Positions 3,056-57,799 of a stretch of DNA of 64,000 nucleotides are shown one piece after another. This DNA is from Trichosporon coremiiforme (lineage: Eukaryota; Basidiomycota; Tremellomycetes; Trichosporonales; Trichosporonaceae). The DNA lies in the NCBI GenBank assembly GCA_039545355.1, contig BCJJ01000016.1:310001-374000 (forward strand), in the 5' to 3' direction. Made by a program: the position numbers and the translations under genes. The notes under the pieces are model-generated. The model did no database searches. It was not told the origin of the DNA and saw nothing but the letters and a program-made list of their open reading frames with translations. Within the stretch, counting starts at the first letter, position 1. Every line of letters begins with the position of its first letter.

Positions 3056-5013
3056 ATGTTCCTTCTCCCGACACCGCCAATTACGCCGCGCAAGTTTGGG
3101 TCCGGCGGCCTCTCCAACTTGCTGGCACCGCCGACACCGCGCGTCTCTGACCCGAGACCGACGACAACACGCCGCCTTAGCGATGGCGAGCTGGTCAGGT
3201 ACCTCCCTGCGCGCACTGAGGGGCGCGGTGACCTGTGAGTATGCCTATGATTGAGGTGCGATTGCGACAGAAAATTGCATGCGGCCATGCGGGGCTCATG
3301 AAAGCCCATTCGGGCCATGGGGGCTATGCCTTGCATCAACTCGCTCGATGCTCTGATTACGTTCAGTCATACGCGATGGCCATGTTGCAGGCAGTGGAGA
3401 GAGCTCGGAGCTGTGGCGAAGGAGGGCGCAAGGACGTGTTTCAGCTTGTGTTGTGGCGTCTTGCTGACCTCAGATATGTCCACCAAGTGATCCTCGGGCG
3501 AAGTTCACTGCTCTCCCAGCCCCGAGTCCGACTAGCATGGGCGATCCTGCTCGCAAGGCACCCATTATTGGCGGCTAGGATTCAAGCGCGGTCCTACACA
3601 CAGACGTCGTTCTTGCACGCCTCCCCCACCTCGATCGATCTCGCCCTAGCACGGGCAGATCAGCAACTGACTTACTTGCCAGAGTGTCAGACGGATCTGG
3701 TCGATGCCTTCTTGCACGGGCCGCGGACATTGAACGCGGATACGAGTGCCGTGCTCGTTGTGCGAACTTTGCCCCGGGACGGAGAGCGATTACGAACGGG
3801 AGAACGGATTTACGAGCTCCTACTGTGCGCGGCGCCATACGCCTCGACTCCTTCCGGATTGCACGCCGTCATGGCCGAGCTGCACTCTCTTCTCCGGACA
3901 CGGGACCTGACCAGTCTTCTGCTTTACGAGCTCGCCCACCCTGCTCCGTTCCCGAGTGCGCTCGACGCAGCGCCGCTGACGCCATTGCAACACGCGGTCG
4001 GTGCAGTGCTGTACGCGCACGACTGCTCGGGACCCGGGGCCCAAGCGTTTCCTCACAACCTCGGGCCATCACGGCACTTCTCCTCCGACCCCCTCGAGCG
4101 AGAGTTCGACCCACGGACAACAGAAAGGATACACGCCCGCTGTCGGGAAAGAGGGACCGAGTTCGTCCACGTGCTCGTGTACCTTGCCGCTGCGGCGTTC
4201 GGCTCACAAGTGTACGACCGCGGAACACCGACACTGATCGAGCTCCCGACACCATATACGTCCCCGCTCCCCCAGTGCTCGCCGACACCGAGCATGACCA
4301 GCGACTCTGACAGCAGCGTGTTTTCAGAAGAGGAAGTGAGCAACCCTGTGCTCGTGAGCCAATTTGCGCCGAAGTGCGCAGAGACGATATGGGCCAAAGC
4401 GGCCGCTCTGACGAGGCGGGAACGGAAGCAGCACACGACCTTGCGGCAGCTGGCTAAGTTTGCTGCTGCTGCCAAGGCGGAGGTGCAGGACTGTATCCGG
4501 AGTGCGAAGCGGGAGGACGAGAGCAACCCCGGTCTCGGGCTGGTAGGGTTCAGCATGCCGAACCGCCCTGCGCCGGTGCCCGAATGTTCCGAGGAGGGAT
4601 GCACATCGCCCACTACTTCCACATTCGGTTCTTCAACACCAGGCGATACCGGTCACGGATCCGTGTCACGACAAGAGAAGCGGAGACGGCGAGCCTCCCC
4701 GCTCCTCGGCATCCAGAACCTCGGCTCCCTCGACGCCCTGTACGCCCCCGACATCGAGGGTCTGGTCGATGGCCTGCAGGTCCGTCGCATGTCGACAGGG
4801 AAACGACGGAGCGGCGTGCTCCTGTACTACTTCGAGTTTGGGGGACGGGTCACGCTCAGTGTCTCGGCGGACGAGGGGTATGAGCTGCGCCGGTGGTGGG
4901 ACGAACTGGGCGCGTTGATCGACGACATGTTCGCCCCGCCTGAGGAGCCGCCGACACGGCTCGAGTGGGGAGGCATGGTTGAGCCGCCGGACGTGCTGGA
5001 GGCTGACTGGTGA
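3056..5013 (+). CDS. Condensation/acyltransferase-fold protein, probably lacking the catalytic motif
   Basis: Exons 3056-3234 and 3474-5013 give about 572 residues; the intron has a GTGAGT donor and a gctgacctcag 3' end and keeps the frame. Just after the junction the sequence WAILLARHPLLAARI is the helix seen near the N-terminus of condensation-domain and BAHD-like/fungal acetyltransferase proteins, and the C-terminus (FEFGGRVTLSVSADEG) matches the late beta-strand region of that fold. Where active members carry HHxxxDG, this protein reads CAAPYASTPSG, so acyl transfer is doubtful. Ser/Thr-rich and charged segments lie in the middle (about residues 290-430). The frame is also open through the 239-nt intron, so a longer N-terminally different form starting inside it is possible. 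Convergent with TRP4. Family assignment is inference from fold-like motifs. Confidence 0.65.
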
Positions 5014-5555
5014 TGGCCCACCGCTCACTGTTGCGAGAACAACAGTGTGAAGCCTAGTTTGGTAGAGGCAATGCCACTCCAATGTCACAGTCTGCCAAGT
5101 GGCATGCCCTAAGCATGTCACAGTCATACCCACCACTGCGGATGCCACCGCAGCCCACTCTCCTAACCCTACATACACCTCCGGCTCCGATTTCAGCCGT
5201 CTGGTGCGGCATGCAGCTGCGATCAGCAAGATGACGACTTTAACGATGCCACGAAGCAAGGCGACAAACTGTACGACCAAACGACGAACACTTTCAGCAT
5301 GCAAACAAACACACGCACAGTTCAAATCACAACACAATCTAGCATTTATATCATCCTGCGGAGGGGGTCGAGCGCCATAGATACATATAGTTCTTTTATG
5401 ATGTACTACTCCTCCCCTTCGCCTTCACCTCATGCTGCCCATCGTCTGCGCGGCAGACCTTATCGAGCTACTAATCCAAGAAAGCCTACGGACATGGAAG
5501 AGGGATTGGGCAGGCAGCCCACGTATACCGAGAATCAGCTGTGCGGGGAACACGC
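5014..5555. other. Convergent 3' intergenic region
   Basis: This holds the 3' ends of the condensation-fold gene and TRP4. Nothing coding is seen. An AT-richer stretch around 5320-5410 probably carries the polyadenylation signals of both transcripts. Confidence 0.5.
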
Positions 5556-51770: not shown

Positions 51771-52573
51771 CGGTGTTACAAAAGCAGCGCTTCTGGTGTG
51801 GTCGGTGGTCGTGACGATGCAACAGCTCGAGATGGCCATGTGTATGGCGAGAGGATGGCGCACATTGCTCGACGTGCACGGAGACTCGGAAGCACGCAAT
51901 GAGCGCAATGTGCACTGCGCGCTCTGTGCTGGCTGCACGACCAGATGCCGGCGGGACACAGGCCGCACGTTCTCGATCCTCCTATCCTCCTTCCTCTCTC
52001 TGTCCTTTCTTTTCGCCAGACGATCGTTTCGGCGGTCTCAAAGCTTCGCCTTCTGCTTCGCCAGACTGTCAAGGAAGCCATACGTGAGTCGCTCCAGCCC
52101 CCGGTTTTGCGCATTACCGATTGCTTTCTGCTGAACTTGATCGATGCGGGGGCTCGGGGAGCGACACGAGATTCCCGGCCACCAAATGCGGAGCGGGAGG
52201 GCGGACCACTGCGTCGGTGTTGGCTGAGCTGGGTTCATAGTCGTTGATGCTGAGGTGGGTGATGGAGAGGCGTCATGGGGGAAGAATGTTAAGAACGGCC
52301 GTGGGTTGAGGAGTAATACCGAACACCGCGCAACTCACCGCCGTCGACGGAGCTAGTGACCTTGGCGTGGTTAGGTGAACTGGGTGACGTCAGGCACAGC
52401 TGTTTACGTCGGCAGACACCGACATTGCAGTCCGTCCAGTCGCCAGCGATGGCACTTTCACAATGCCCATAGTGCACAGGGTGAGCAATGTAGAAGTGAT
52501 GAAAACTACGTAGTGTGCAGGCGGGGTTGAGGTCGAGTCCGACGCCGAAACCGAGCCCTCAGAGACCATCCTC
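51771..52573. other. Left edge of the small-gene region, no gene proven
   Basis: No supported gene. An intron-like segment (GTGAGC at 52481 to gtgtgcag at 52520) lies just before the next candidate frame and hints at an upstream exon that I cannot resolve. Confidence 0.45.
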
Positions 52574-52876
52574 ATGCACGGCGTGCCGGATGACGGCACC
52601 CAAGCACAGCCCACCGAGGACGGCGACGTGTTTGTCCCGCCCCAGCCTATGCGTCTTGTTCGGGGTCCCGCCCAGAATGTCTCCTATGCATGGCAGTTCT
52701 CTGCCAAGCGCCTCCCCCTCACGTTCATGCACCGCACTCTCGCCGGGGTGGAGCACAAGACACTGCCTTGGGTCGACGTCCGCCGCTTTGCGCGTATGCT
52801 CGACATCCGCTCCTCAGCGCAATGGGTTCGTGACGCCGTGCCCCTCGACGACTTCGCCTGCACACTGTGCGCCTGA
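52574..52876 (+). CDS. Candidate small protein, possibly a very divergent SUMO-like member
   Basis: A 100-residue ATG frame; the frame is open upstream to an acceptor-like gtgtgcag (52520), so an earlier exon is likely. From VSYAWQFSAKRLPL to VPLDDFACTLCA it can be laid against the SUMO-like genes that follow (WRVYPTTRV..., DRFKMQ..., EEGDIIDAL): shared points are the Trp, the R-F pair and the acidic-hydrophobic end. This is weak, pattern-level similarity. No diglycine. It could equally be an unrelated hypothetical or a remnant. Confidence 0.35.
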   Translation: MHGVPDDGTQAQPTEDGDVFVPPQPMRLVRGPAQNVSYAWQFSAKRLPLTFMHRTLAGVEHKTLPWVDVRRFARMLDIRSSAQWVRDAVPLDDFACTLCA

Positions 52877-53394
52877 CAAAGGGTGCGGGCTGGGACAATG
52901 TGAACGTGCTGCCTCACGGCGTACCGCGTCGTCTTCGAAAAGCTCAATGCGCAACACTGTCCCGTAATGTGTCTTGGCCACGTGTTTCAATAGCGTGTGG
53001 TCGTGACAGGTGCACATGGATGCTGTCTCTGTGATCTGAAAAGAATTGCCTAGTCCATATTTCCGCATCTGCTCAAGGCGGGGATGGGTCTGGAAAGACC
53101 GCGAATTTCGGCTTGTGTCTCAGACTGAGGAAGACGTAGACCGCTGCGATCCAGAGTTGCCCGATATGGTCTCGATTCAGACACTTTGTACTGCTCGTGG
53201 GAAGTGCGTAAATGCAGCATGTGCTCATGAGACAGACGGGTTGAGCGATTTCGGAGATTGGACGTCGTTGAGCGATTTTAGCTACAAGGGTCCGAACGCG
53301 GGGACCTGACAATAGCGGCTTCTCAAACGTCTCCTTAACTCGTCCCCTCCAACATGTGTGCGTGCTTTGTTGACACGGTCGATTGTTGCATGTG
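52877..53394. other. Intergenic in the ubiquitin-like region
   Basis: 518 bp with no supported coding; the 5' flank of the first clear SUMO-like gene. Confidence 0.5.
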
Positions 53395-54065
53395 ATGTCT
53401 CTCAGTGCCGAGGATGCTACTTATGCAAGTCGAGCCGGTCTTGGGCTCGCCACTGTCCCCTCCCCACTAAGAAACATGTCTGACCCAACCTCCCCTGTTG
53501 CGTTATCTTCCAAATTCGAGGTCGAGCCCGAAATCGCCTCCCTCTCCACCACACTGGCGTACAGTCGCCAACCCACCTCCACCCAGCACTACCTCTCCCC
53601 TTCTCCTGGCGGTACTCACCACCCCGAACGGAAAGCATGGTATAAGGCCGAACACAGGAAACAAATTTGGGAGCGTGCGACGCCGACCAAGGTCGCGAAG
53701 CCTGTCTGCGTGGTAGTGCGGTACGGCAGCGTCGTGTGGCATGCCAAAGTCGGTGAGGAGACGTACATCTACTACCTCAAGGTAGGCTGTGCTAGTTCTT
53801 GTGCTGAGCTGACAACAGCGTGCCATCGCGTACCGCTTCGCGCCGCAGGTCGGTCCAACAGGGCTTCAGTGAGCTGCAGCACAGCAAATGGACTTGGCAG
53901 CTGACGGGCGCAGAATCATATACGGAGGGCGCAGACTGAAGGACTGTCAGCAGATTCGCGACACGGGGATCGAGTACGGCGACGAAGTCGAGTGTACCAT
54001 CGACTACGGTGGGATAGCGCCTGACCTCTAGACTGACCGCAGACCAGATTGAGCTGTCTGGCTAG
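53395..54065 (+). CDS. SUMO-like protein, paralog 1
   Basis: Exons 53395-53781, 53819-53868, 53914-54008, 54043-54065, about 184 residues. The N-terminal 110 residues are Ser/Thr/Pro-rich; ASRAGLGLATVPSPLR resembles the start of the two paralogs downstream. The C-terminal 75 residues read as a beta-grasp fold of the SUMO kind: CVVVRYGSVVWHAKV, AIAYRFAPQVG, IIYGGRRLKD, TGIEYGDEVECTID, to be compared with FLFDGRRI and LGMEEGDVIDAM of SUMO. The last exon gives a terminus ending in IELSG, a single glycine with no tail to remove; if the last intron is not spliced, the frame instead reads YGG followed by five residues and a stop at 54031. Function unknown; attachment to targets is only a hypothesis. 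Confidence 0.7.
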
Positions 54066-54238
54066 AAGAGGGCGTACAGTAGTGTGTGTCGCTGTGTCAT
54101 ACTTGCGTCATGTTATGAAGCTGTGTTGTACGGTGTCGCACGCGCACACGCCTGGTCTGTACGGTGGGCGCTGGAACGCTGACGGCATTGATAAGCGCAT
54201 AGCTTGCAACACCTGACTTTTCTCATCCACATCTCACC

Positions 54239-54892
54239 ATGACGGTCGCCATTGACGACAGCACCGCGGACGTCTGCTGCCTCTCGCGCAGCCTAGCCGC
54301 CTTTGGCTTCACGGGCATTCGTCCCCATCGCTCTCGTCCGGTCACCGAGTCCGAGAAAGCTGCCATTCTCGAGAAGCGCAAGTTGTCCCTCGACTCTTTC
54401 GACTCGGACGCCCCCTCCATCACCTCCACCGCCGTCGAAGTCAGCTCTGACTCGTCAGTTTACGAAGTCAAGCCTTGGATTGTCGACGAGGGACTGGCTC
54501 GCTCGCGCCACAAGCATGGTCCCCACGACGATGCGATCCACATCAAGACCTGCTACGGCAACAGGAACACTGACTGGAGGGTGTACCCTACCACCCGCGT
54601 CTGAAGACTCAAGGTGGGCTGGGTGTGTGATTGCATGGAGAGCTGACAAGACAGAGGAGCTTCGCATACCGCTATGCCCGCGACGTGGGACCGGACGCCC
54701 TCCAGTGAGTCTGCCTGGGATGAGTGATGCTAACGCCGTGCTAGGTTCAACTTTGACCGTTTCAAGATGCAAGTCGACTCACGCATCCGCGACTTCGAGA
54801 TGGAAGAGGGAGACATCATTGACGCCCTTCCCGACTTCAGTGAGCTTTTGGCCTTGATGGTACTGACGCCAGGCCGCATGCATGGTGGTTGA
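54239..54892 (+). pseudogene. SUMO-like protein, paralog 2, interrupted by one stop codon
   Basis: Exons 54239-54613, 54655-54704, 54745-54839, 54873-54892 align with the neighbouring paralogs in number, phase and size. The start MTVAIDDSTADVCCLSR parallels MTVATSSESVHSVSCLSR of paralog 3. The fold blocks are RVYPTTRV, SFAYRYARDVGPDALQ, FNFDRFKM, FEMEEGDIIDAL, and the reading ends in RMHGG at the stop, a mature-looking diglycine. A TGA at 54602-54604 stands where paralog 3 has a Lys codon, just before the first intron, so translation would stop after 121 residues and lose the fold. Everything downstream is still in good order, so the stop is recent, or is read through, or is a sequence error. 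Confidence 0.65.
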
Positions 54893-55196
54893 ACGGAGTA
54901 GTCTGGGCTCTGATGGTCTCCGCATGCATGTTAGAGGTGTTGTAGGTCGTAGTGAAATGAACAAGCGATGCATGTCATGAACGCACTCCCATCTCCCCAT
55001 TGTGTGCCAAGGCATGTATATGTTGCACATCGCGACCAATTTCGGTCGCCCATGCCCCAACTAACCGGCTCGCCGACACACAGCTGAGATCTGCGCACTC
55101 CTGGCTGCGCGATAACAGCTGCTCCTCATAACCCCTCCAGATCAATGTTCTCACGCCATGTCTCCTATCTCCTCCTTCATCGCCTTTCAACCCACC
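54893..55196. other. Intergenic between SUMO-like paralogs
   Basis: 304 bp with no further coding; ATG at 55158 lies in frame with the next gene but the paralog alignment favours 55197. Confidence 0.5.
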
Positions 55197-55882
55197 ATGA
55201 CGGTCGCCACCTCCTCCGAATCAGTCCACAGTGTCTCCTGCCTCTCGCGCGGGCTCGCTCTCCTCGGTCTCCATCCCAGCCCCAGCAAGCGCACCCCCAC
55301 CCCCCTGAGCGAAAAGAATCTGAAGCTCCACACCGGTTCCGACTCTGGGTCAGAAACTTCCAGCACCCAGTCCTGGTTCACTGTCGAGAAGCCCCAGAGT
55401 CCCGAGCAGGCTAACGAAACTGAGAAGCTTCCCGCCCCCGCCTCGGACAGCACGAGCCAGCTCGCCGTCGAGACGTACGAGGAGGATCTGCCCACCTACA
55501 CTGAGCCAAGCATCCTCACCGTCTCGGTCAGGTACAAGCATCACGAGATTTACTTCCTTGTCAAGCCTACCACGCGCATTAAGATCATCAAGGTGAGCTT
55601 GCTCGTTCGTAGGCCATCACAGCTGACACTGCAGCGCGGGTTCGCGAACCACTATGGGTCGAAGGGCGAGCTGCGCCCCGAAAAACTGCAGTGAGTCGTC
55701 ACTTTAGTGTATCCGAGGCTGAAGCCAAGGCTCAACTACAACAGCCGTAAGCTCCGTGACAGGATGACTGTCGCTGAGTGCGGTATTGAGGACGGCGACG
55801 AGATCCATTGCATGATTGACTTCGGTAAGCTAAGCGGTTTCTGCACTGGCTCACGTCAGATTACACCCCCATGGCTGGATGA
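55197..55882 (+). CDS. SUMO-like protein, paralog 3
   Basis: Exons 55197-55592, 55635-55690, 55730-55824, 55860-55882, about 189 residues. A 13-residue longer start (55158) is possible. After a Ser/Thr/Pro-rich N-terminus the fold runs LTVSVRYKHHEIYFLVKPTT, RGFANHYGSKG, LNYNSRKLRD, CGIEDGDEIHCMID, and ends DYTPMAG at the stop, again a single terminal glycine. The third exon is 95 nt, identical in length to the other two paralogs, which supports the AAG acceptor chosen for intron 2 (39 nt); an earlier ctttag would leave a 17-nt intron and break the frame. The first intron (42 nt) has no stop and could be retained. Confidence 0.72.
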
Positions 55883-56182
55883 TCTGCGCACGAGACTTGA
55901 TTCAAGTGAAGTCAGAAGGGCCCTAGTGACACCTTAAGCTATACACTAATGCTCTGTGAGACGGCAGCTAGCTGCGTTTGTAATTCTTAGGTTCAAAGAT
56001 GCATGGAACTGATGAGAACTTCATCCTGTTATCTCGGTGAAATCGCATTCGGAGCCCTGAATCGGTGATGTCGGCGTTCGTACAGTAAATGAGACTTCTT
56101 CTGGGCGGCCATCACTGCAGCTGTTTGAACCTCTGATGTGCACGTAAATGCATACAACATGACACTGTAAACTTTCCAGCAG
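55883..56182. other. Convergent intergenic, paralog 3 / two-domain protein
   Basis: 300 bp with no coding support. Confidence 0.5.
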
Positions 56183-57081
56183 TTACATGCGGTCCAAACA
56201 TTGGGAGTAGATAGCGATCATCCTCTCTCGTCCCCCAGGAAGGGACAGCTGCTTCTGGACATCGAGTGCTACGTAGAGTCCGGCGTACGTCTTCCCTGGC
56301 GGGACGTAGTCATCGAGGCTCTTGTCGTCGACAACATAGTCGGAGGTGATGAACCGAAGTCTTAAAGTCAGCTGAAGAACACATCCAGAACGCACACTTG
56401 AGCTGCGGCCATGTAGTACGTTTTCTTCTCGATGATGAACTTCAAGTCCTTGATTTTGATGTGCCGAGGAACGTCGAGGCAGCAAATGGCGGTACCCCAC
56501 TCGTTCACAGCATTGATGTGGACCATTTCGACATCTTAAATGAGCACGAGCTTTCAGATTATAGTGACAGAGAACTCACCACGGGGCTGGCCAACACCAA
56601 AGAGCATGGACCTGCGCCAGCTGTTGGGCAGGTGTTGCGCCTTGCGGACAACGCGAAGGGAGATATCGATCTCATCGGGTCTAGTCCCTGCTTCATCGCT
56701 GAACAGGAGTCGGTGGACCTCGAGATGAGGCTGGACTGGGCCCCTCAAGCTGTGAAGTCTGCCATTAGCTGACGGACCAAGTGACAGCCTACTCAATACG
56801 ATCAACGTCAACGGCGACGCTGTCGTCTAGCGACTCCAGGTAGTGCACCCACGCATCGAGAAGCTCTCGAGCTCTGACGTCGTGAGGGAAGACAGTCTGG
56901 AGTGACAAGTCATTGTTGCCGAGGAGCTCGATACGAACTGAGGTCAGTACTCATAGGCGGGGGAAGGCTCACGAGTTCCAGCTTGCTTCCGTCGTCTGAT
57001 AGAAGCGATACGAGCGAGGGTGGCAGCAACGGGTGAGGCTACGCTACGAAGGGAGGAAGTCGTCTTACGCGAGATTGCCAT
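56183..57081 (-). CDS. Protein with two ubiquitin-like domains and a Pro-Gly-Gly terminus plus tail
   Basis: Exons (minus) 57081-56973, 56937-56793, 56758-56580, 56534-56396, 56360-56183; about 249 residues, all four junctions in frame. A basic Ser/Arg-rich N-terminus is followed by a first beta-grasp-like part (RIELLGNNDLSLQTVF, ARELLDAWVHYL) and a second, clearer one (about 146-234): ICCLDVPRHIKIKDLKFII is the beta2-alpha1 region, VVDDKSLDDYVPPG resembles EDGRTLSDYNIQ of ubiquitin, and the domain ends LSLPGG (compare LRLRGG), followed by 15 residues (RERMIAIYSQCLDRM). A UBL-specific protease could remove that tail. Exons 4 and 5 follow AAG acceptors; introns 2 and 4 are 34-35 nt; the donor of intron 4 (GTGCGT) is the least certain point. 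Confidence 0.68.
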
Positions 57082-57799
57082 GGCGGGCGAGGCGAGAACG
57101 GGTGGCTGGACACTCGAGGAAGGGAAGTCGTTGGCCGGCAACGAAGGAAGGTCAGAGGAAGGTGTTGCGCGGAAAGGGAGGCTTGGCCGAGACGCGGGAA
57201 GGACGAATACAAATGTTCAGAGGAAGCGAAGTGTCTGCCAATCGCTGAGTACAGGTGACCGAAAGAGGAGGAGTGTAAGGAGATAGGAGGAACACGAGGT
57301 GAGGTTGAAGAAGAAAGAGAAGGAAGAAGGAAGATCCAGCTGTGGACCGCATGAGGTGTATATAACGATCTGCAGACCACAGGTCGGGGCACAGAAACCC
57401 TAGCACTTAGCGCAGAATTGGCGCCGCAATTGTGCCCTGGAGTATCCACTCAACATACAGACGCTAGAGTGCGAGGCAACCGAACGTGCATAGAGCATTG
57501 CAGTGCAAGCTGCTCATCTCACCTCCTCTATGCATGGTTGAGATGTCGTGGTTTGTCATAAGGAGTCACAACTGCGACTGATGCCCAGGTGTCAGCTCAG
57601 TTGTCCACGTCAGGGCACCATGGAATTGACCGAGTCTCGGGTTTGAAGGAATGAGATCGGAAACCGTGCAGTCAAATCGGTGTGCCATCAGGACTCGTTT
57701 GCACGGAACCAGCGCCTCCTCAATCACTTTCATCATACTATCTTCAGATTCGTATTCGGAGCTTTGGAGGGCTCAAGGGCAGCAGGGAAGATGCTGCAT
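57082..57799. other. Upstream of the two-domain gene, no other gene
   Basis: 718 bp. A TATA-like gaggtgtatataacg lies at 57353-57367 on the plus strand (tatatac read on minus), about 275 bp upstream of the two-domain start. No other coding support. Confidence 0.45.

Follow-up and report, generated by a model that had tools for sequence, protein, structure and literature searches.

Gene trio in the window

The window analysed here is a stretch of 64,000 nucleotides (nt), G000:C16:310001-374000, of a 42.04-Mb genome, and comparisons were made within that genome. On its plus strand lie three neighbouring genes, gene 1, gene 2 and gene 3, whose proteins (157-189 amino acids, aa) each carry one recognised domain, a C-terminal SUMO/ubiquitin-like domain. 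It is preceded by an N-terminal arm of about the same size, with motifs common to the members (LS..LA and W...E). The features of the locus are as follows:

53476..54065, plus strand: gene 1; exons 53476-53781, 53819-53868, 53914-54008 and 54043-54065; 157 aa, ending IELSG before the stop
53698..54065, plus strand: SUMO/ubiquitin-like domain of gene 1; introns 53782-53818 (phase 0), 53869-53913 (phase 2) and 54009-54042 (phase 1)
54043..54065, plus strand: tail exon of gene 1; terminal glycine codon 54060-54062, directly followed by the stop
54239..54892, plus strand: gene 2; exons 54239-54613, 54655-54704, 54745-54839 and 54873-54892; ending RMHGG before the stop; interrupted in the window copy
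54602..54604, plus strand: in-frame TGA in exon 1 of gene 2, nine bases 5' of the intron-1 donor
54873..54892, plus strand: tail exon of gene 2; terminal Gly-Gly 54884-54889, directly followed by the stop
55197..55882, plus strand: gene 3; exons 55197-55592, 55635-55690, 55730-55824 and 55860-55882; 189 aa, ending TPMAG before the stop
55506..55882, plus strand: SUMO/ubiquitin-like domain of gene 3; introns 55593-55634 (phase 0), 55691-55729 (phase 2) and 55825-55859 (phase 1)
55860..55882, plus strand: tail exon of gene 3; terminal Ala-Gly 55874-55879, directly followed by the stop

Exon 2 is 50, 50 and 56 nt long in genes 1, 2 and 3, exon 3 is 95 nt long in each and exon 4 measures 23, 20 and 23 nt, with intron phases of 0, 2 and 1 in all three genes. 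A first-pass annotation of this DNA had proposed three genes on the same strand with these exon sizes, and both points were confirmed by splicing and by a diverged second copy of the trio. Exon 3 of gene 3 begins at 55730 behind an AAG acceptor, while an alternative CAG further downstream leads to an exon of 80 nt. An exon of 95 nt recovers the domain and has its equivalent in the diverged copy; it was the one adopted. A CLSR-type start of the arm, ascribed to all three genes by the same annotation, holds only in part, as gene 1 has SLSTTLA.

Diverged copy and selection

The stretch 52500-57000 of the window has a single other match in the genome, L024 (G000:C2:2151750-2155499), with a nucleotide identity of 73%. 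Many genes of the genome occur as pairs, polyubiquitin and SUMO included, and L024 was for this reason treated as the homeolog of a hybrid or duplicated genome. The paired loci suggest a hybrid Trichosporonales yeast; hybrids of such kind are described in PMC6642101 and PMC12820176. The homeologs of genes 1, 2 and 3 (h1, h2 and h3) are all located in L024 and have open frames, with exons 2-4 of 50/95/23, 50/95/20 and 56/95/23 nt, respectively.

Identity between window and homeolog at codon positions 1, 2 and 3 is 0.924, 0.924 and 0.677 in gene 1 (introns 0.621), 0.844, 0.856 and 0.617 in gene 2 (introns 0.649), and 0.784, 0.800 and 0.632 in gene 3 (introns 0.638). Exons 2-4 show no length difference between the copies. 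The six insertions or deletions (indels) in exon 1 are all multiples of three (12 nt in gene 1; 6 and 9 nt in gene 2; 3, 9 and 15 nt in gene 3), although the placement of these gaps differs slightly in an alignment of the whole region. Ratios of nonsynonymous to synonymous substitution rates (dN/dS) between window and homeolog were calculated by the Nei-Gojobori method with up to 500 bootstraps, setting the stop codon of gene 2 aside. The obtained values are 0.114 (0.055-0.198) for gene 1, 0.216 (0.134-0.321) for gene 2 and 0.252 (0.160-0.395) for gene 3. For the domains alone, the ratios are 0.050, 0.147 and 0.146, compared to 0.188, 0.289 and 0.390 for the N-terminal arms.

Codon-position conservation, indels in threes and dN/dS together indicate that the three genes exist, that their splicing is as proposed and that purifying selection acts on them; by these substitution patterns, the selection is looser in the N-terminal arm than in the domain. 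The genes had been described as fast-diverging in the first-pass annotation. This is true of the paralogs (30-34% identity to gene 3), but not of the homeologs, given dN/dS values of 0.11, 0.22 and 0.25.

Start of gene 1 and interruption of gene 2

Gene 1 had been annotated from 53395, a position that reads ATG in the window and ATA in the homeolog. The first ATG common to both is located at 53476. The stretch 53395-53475 shows an identity of 0.679 between the copies, which is the level of introns and third codon positions. In the homeolog, a further in-frame ATG lies 35 codons upstream of the equivalent of 53476, and the window offers only that at 53395. Among the protein relatives of gene 1, P0007 also has an upstream ATG, and P0003 and P0013 begin at MSDP. 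The comparison favours 53476 as the best-supported start; a longer form, beginning at a different site, is possible.

Upstream of gene 1, an open frame of 13 codons (53354-53395, plus strand; MCACFVDT..CCM before the stop) has a conserved counterpart in the homeolog (L024:1626). Identity between the copies over 53310-53394 is 0.859, slightly above that of the exons of gene 1 (0.842). The short frame may be a regulatory upstream frame.

For gene 2 (54239-54892), the TGA at 54602-54604 had gone unmentioned in the first-pass annotation. The frame is open at this point in h2 and in all five proteins that the h2 search yielded (P0015-P0019); among these, P0015 corresponds closely to gene 2 of the window itself. 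When 61 positions were scanned for in-phase GT sites 5' of the stop, two were found (54581 GTGTAC and 54599 GTCTGA), neither of which resembles the donors of the family. Gene 2 thus appears either interrupted in the window copy or affected by an assembly error at the TGA; intact copies exist elsewhere.

Identity of the domain

The Pfam cut-offs are 25.4 bits for ubiquitin (PF00240) and 23.8 bits for Rad60-SLD (PF11976). Gene 3 exceeds both (38.6 and 35.1 bits), as does h3 (40.9 and 39.9 bits). Gene 1 and h1 exceed the ubiquitin cut-off (26.0 and 26.5 bits), with Rad60-SLD scores of 15.8 and 16.0 bits. The tail piece of gene 2 reaches 23.0 bits with Rad60-SLD, whereas the intact homeolog h2 reaches 35.2 bits, and 12.9 bits with ubiquitin. 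Two further genes of the family, L011A (27.1 bits) and L009b (30.7 bits), are above the PF11976 cut-off; the members scanned against this family were genes 1 and 3, h1-h3, L011A and L009b as a whole and gene 2 by its tail piece. The C-terminal SUMO/ubiquitin-like domain of the first-pass annotation is therefore seen in gene 3 and h2 with Rad60-SLD and in genes 1 and 3 with ubiquitin, but not in gene 1 or the tail piece of gene 2 at the Rad60-SLD cut-off.

A profile built from nine domains of the family matched SMT3 in the PDB over positions 2-75 with 52.0 bits (E 5.3e-13), compared to at most 11.5 bits for single ubiquitin domains; the top PDB rows are poly-ubiquitins, the totals of which are sums over repeats. 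With hhalign, the family matched an alignment that combined ubiquitin with the SUMO of this genome at a probability of 97.2 (E 3.6e-11). In a tree of 16 domains, SUMO, the Rad60-type domain and the family are separated from ubiquitin with support values of 98/99 and the family forms one group with 80/83; branches in this tree are long and five of its 13 forks are open. As for ubiquitin itself, h2 is below PF00240 and no spliced model ends in RGG.

Probable descent from SUMO

A Rad60-SLD scan identified the ordinary SUMO of the genome at L015 and L016, which encode identical proteins ending EQIGGSL; their PDB matches are SUMO and SMT3. In both subgenomes, the SUMO gene has exons of 55/89/44/92/20 nt and intron phases 1, 0, 2 and 1. 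The same phases are found in the two genes of a second cluster that were modelled in full, L011A (214/86/50/95/23 nt) and L009b (169/83/68/95/23 nt). The trio has the last three SUMO introns only; the phase-1 intron of SUMO before the domain is missing there and present in L011A and L009b.

When placed on one alignment, the introns fall on columns 47 (phase 0), 69 (phase 2) and 101 or 102 (phase 1) in nine of nine rows (SUMO_A, SUMO_B, L011A, L009b, h2, and genes 1 and 3 with h1 and h3; the interrupted window copy of gene 2 was left out). The first-pass annotation had claimed the same three intron positions and phases throughout the trio, which agrees with the columns shared by genes 1 and 3 and all three homeologs, and had pointed to the canonical SMT3 as a comparison, which turned out to have these sites and phases as well.

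As a control for the intron plan, eight loci with other ubiquitin-like genes were fetched and five of them read by eye. In two genes that we take to be Rad23-like and Dsk2-like, an intron follows LIYSG and thus lies a few residues 3' of the SUMO site. The introns of a presumably NEDD8-like gene are located elsewhere, and the remaining two genes are intron-free in the matched stretch. Polyubiquitin and the Rad60-type domain of L018/L019 are single open frames. Among the ubiquitin-like genes read, the SUMO intron plan is common to SUMO and the family only. Because the introns of the family are at the sites and in the phases of SUMO, unlike those of five other ubiquitin-like genes, we consider it highly probable that the family descends from the SUMO (SMT3) gene.

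Size and spread of the family

Beside the two SUMO copies, we found 17 SUMO-like loci in two duplicated clusters, where the first-pass annotation had assumed a local family. The count is a lower bound based on scans with PF11976, PF00240 and single proteins, together with reading of the loci:

Cluster 1: the window trio (3 loci) and the homeolog trio in L024 (3 loci)
Cluster 2, about C16:980.6-995 kb: 6 loci (L009a-d, L011A-B)
Counterpart of cluster 2, about C28:298-312 kb: 5 loci (L012a-b, L014a-c)

The two second clusters, on C16 and C28, run in opposite directions. L009d was recognised only when the locus was read. For L011B, L012a and L014c no clean first exon could be built, and some of these copies may be damaged. 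At L009 (C16:980500-985500, minus strand), L009c reads past its DLSG via a linker into a second domain, L009d (C16:980619-980939). It may therefore code for a SUMO-like protein with two domains, or be descended from a gene for one. A further weak match was observed at C28:95274-95387 (E 0.037).

Protein relatives of the trio are P0001-P0013, which by reading divide into five for gene 1 and eight for gene 3, and P0015-P0019 for gene 2; scoring in the first protein search was confined to the 7993 candidates with most words in common. Cluster 2 has one relative in the protein database, P0014. A largest-contig size of 11022 is common to P0001, P0016 and P0011, and one of 9230 to P0013, P0019 and P0004, in each case relatives of genes 1, 2 and 3. 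These shared sizes suggest that the trio also sits together in other lineages. Among viral contigs, 212 pattern matches to the family were obtained, none of which was confirmed as a relative.

C-terminal glycine

Twelve of the 17 loci end exactly at glycine, with no tail; these loci are homologous rather than independent, and no probability was computed for the count. In cluster 1, gene 1 and h1 end in ELSG, gene 2 in MHGG, h2 in IHGG, and gene 3 and h3 in PMAG. In cluster 2 and its counterpart, the ends are DWSG (L011A and L012a), NWSG (L011B), VRSG (L012b), DLSG (L009b) and TWGG (L014b). The other loci differ: L009a and L014a end in LSDE and HNED inside exon 3, with the tail exon lost; the frames of L009c and L009d continue past DLSG and TWGG, respectively (L009d by eye); and L014c ends in RGG only with intron 3 unspliced.

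The last glycine codon of gene 1 is GGC in one homeolog and GGA in the other, so that the third base has changed and the glycine is kept. In the Gly-Gly of gene 2 both codons are changed at the third base in h2, again with glycine kept, and the Ala-Gly of gene 3 is kept in h3. SUMO_A and SUMO_B are precursors ending GG-SL, with two residues to be cut, while 12 of the 17 family loci are without such a tail. By the sequence of its members, the family originates from SUMO yet falls outside the definition of SUMO, because di-glycine and precursor tail are missing in most of them.

Proposed role in the SUMO pathway

The machinery of the SUMO pathway is present and, by scans made exon by exon, not expanded. 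These scans, the counts of which are lower bounds, found Peptidase_C48 (SUMO protease) at three loci and zf-MIZ (SIZ/PIAS-type zinc finger) at one. As the pathway looks ordinary, extra SUMO-like proteins would share one enzyme set.

The results suggest that the trio encodes extra protein tags or mimics. In our best explanation, the members of the family are duplicates of the fungus's SUMO gene that would be produced in mature form, each bearing an N-terminal arm of its own. They would enter the SUMO pathway by means of the domain and the free C-terminal glycine, and be attached to a target set by the ordinary SUMO activating enzyme (E1) and conjugating enzyme (E2). Since serine or alanine replaces the penultimate glycine in most members, SUMO proteases may act on them poorly, which would make them more lasting marks. 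We regard the explanation as a whole as evenly balanced between right and wrong. Its parts differ in strength: the members probably act somewhere in the SUMO pathway, conjugated or not, while their conjugation to targets, taken by itself, is plausible at a level a little short of even. The most far-reaching version is a second, multi-gene set of SUMO-type modifiers, translated in mature form and served by the ordinary E1 and E2, whose -SG and -AG ends resist SUMO proteases and give longer-lasting marks than SUMO; this we consider rather unlikely.

The kept terminal glycine speaks for conjugation. Several observations weigh on the other side. The next-to-last residue is changed: a di-glycine end occurs only in gene 2, h2 and L014b, and -SG and -AG are not the SUMO signature. 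The tails are variable, extend three to four residues further beyond the last strand than that of SUMO (by eye) and lack Q-x-G-G. Five of the 17 loci have no clean glycine end. With regard to the domain, gene 1 and h1 stay below the Rad60-SLD cut-off (15.8 and 16.0 compared to 23.8 bits), and the best PDB match of h3 alone is to ubiquitin-like domains of RAD23 (27.6 bits), with SUMO-2 next (25.0 bits). Structure prediction gave no usable model of P0001, a target that appears to retain residues of an unspliced intron. With an alignment of five rows, AlphaFold2 reached a mean predicted local distance difference test (pLDDT) score of 37.1, too low a confidence for use of its beta-grasp-like order of strands and helices; with 16 rows the mean was 53.1 and the order lacked the full beta-grasp set. 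A Foldseek search with the 37.1-pLDDT model of P0001 yielded no match at E <= 1 (best E 1.7).

Some of these points would fit proteins that are not conjugated at all. The SUMO-like domains of Rad60 and Esc2 work as docking modules, and the family could likewise be a SUMO-descended docking module that binds the SUMO E2 or SUMO readers, with the arm providing the specific function and the glycine either inherited or required for folding. The -SG and -AG ends of most members, the missing tail exon of L009a and L014a, the arm of about domain length with its common motifs and the profile likeness to Rad60-SLD are all consistent with such mimics. A pure docking module would, however, not obviously need a glycine that is kept at the very end of 12 of the 17 loci despite varied preceding residues and that, in genes 1 and 2, is preserved between the subgenomes by codons differing at no base but the third. 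We rate this possibility as tentative, well below even but worth serious consideration.

The terminal glycine could also mark short-lived regulators for a ligase that reads C-terminal glycine. C-terminal-glycine degrons occur in human cells, and a conserved last residue in a variable context is what such a signal would leave behind; yet a tail exon inherited from SUMO provides a simpler origin for the glycine, which makes a degron improbable. That the loci are decaying, functionless gene copies is hardly credible: the interrupted gene 2 of the window and the cluster-2 copies without a clean first exon or tail would fit, but the dN/dS values of the trio (0.11-0.25), exon indels in threes and relatives of genes 1-3 elsewhere argue against it. 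Equally remote is descent from another ubiquitin-like gene such as RAD23 with a likeness to SUMO by convergence, to which the small margin of RAD23 as top PDB match of h3 and the better score of gene 1 with PF00240 than with PF11976 would point, since the Rad23-like and Dsk2-like genes here follow a different intron plan and the family has three or four introns of SUMO in site and phase.

Neighbouring genes

Downstream of the homeolog trio, L025:2709-3077 (C2), at the place of L024:6459-6749, contains the frame VIKVQIEGTGEGNKIALEVKAHTTIRRLRNFWAQHL, with a very weak match to the family profile (7.0 bits) and none to Pfam. On the other side, a neighbour upstream in L024 (from 338, about 125 codons; about 52.5-52.9 kb in the window) gave a weak match of F-box type (E 0.0023, 18.1 bits, below the cut-off of 24.3 bits). 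A gene beside cluster 2 (L011 from 3721) is F-box-like in appearance, with no Pfam support.

A convergent neighbour on the minus strand (about 56183-57100; L024 about 4430-5330) is conserved in both copies and has a stretch that is ubiquitin-like in shape (VHINAVNE...CCLDVP...IKDLK...LRFITS...LDDY). It was suspected to be ubiquitin-like, but had no match in Pfam and matched the family with an hhalign probability of 0.1, and was not counted.

Comparison with known systems

Yeast has a single SUMO gene according to PMC10415295. Among the papers listed by full-text searches of an open-licence library, none showed a family of SUMO paralogs in fungi. As for the studies on hybrids, PMC12820176 makes no mention of SUMO or ubiquitin and PMC6642101 none of ubiquitin. 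With one ordinary kind of SUMO and 17 SUMO-derived loci, some of them interrupted and the trio under selection, the genome offers an experiment of nature on what SUMO can do without: its core and last glycine are retained, whereas tails and arms differ. Should any member prove to be conjugated, neither the penultimate glycine nor maturation would be indispensable. Should none be conjugated, the family would illustrate clearly how a modifier can give rise to a set of docking proteins.

A single terminal glycine can suffice for an E1, as in Ufm1 and Atg12. The lone C-terminal glycine is shared with these modifiers, which however belong to other families and have E1s of their own. Rad60/Esc2-type domains resemble the family in matching PF11976 and in that they may be without a conjugation tail. 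The genome's own L018/L019, presumably Rad60/Esc2-like, differ in being intron-free, in being part of another protein and in having no glycine end.

Plant SUMO paralogs need processing. Like the family, they and human SUMO4 are SUMO duplicates, the conjugation of which is partly unclear, but they comprise few genes; they are likened here by description only. Six SUMO proteins of Arabidopsis and doubt over the maturation of SUMO4 are mentioned in PMC10415295.

With SUMO/SMT3 (L015 and L016), the family shares a ubiquitin-like domain by profile, the intron sites and phases, an acidic stretch before the last strand and a short, separate tail exon. Between 19 and 23 of 76-77 aligned residues are identical (genes 1 and 3 and h1, h2 and h3). 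The family differs from SUMO in that it has no precursor tail, ends mostly in -SG or -AG instead of -GG, carries a long N-terminal arm and consists of multiple genes.

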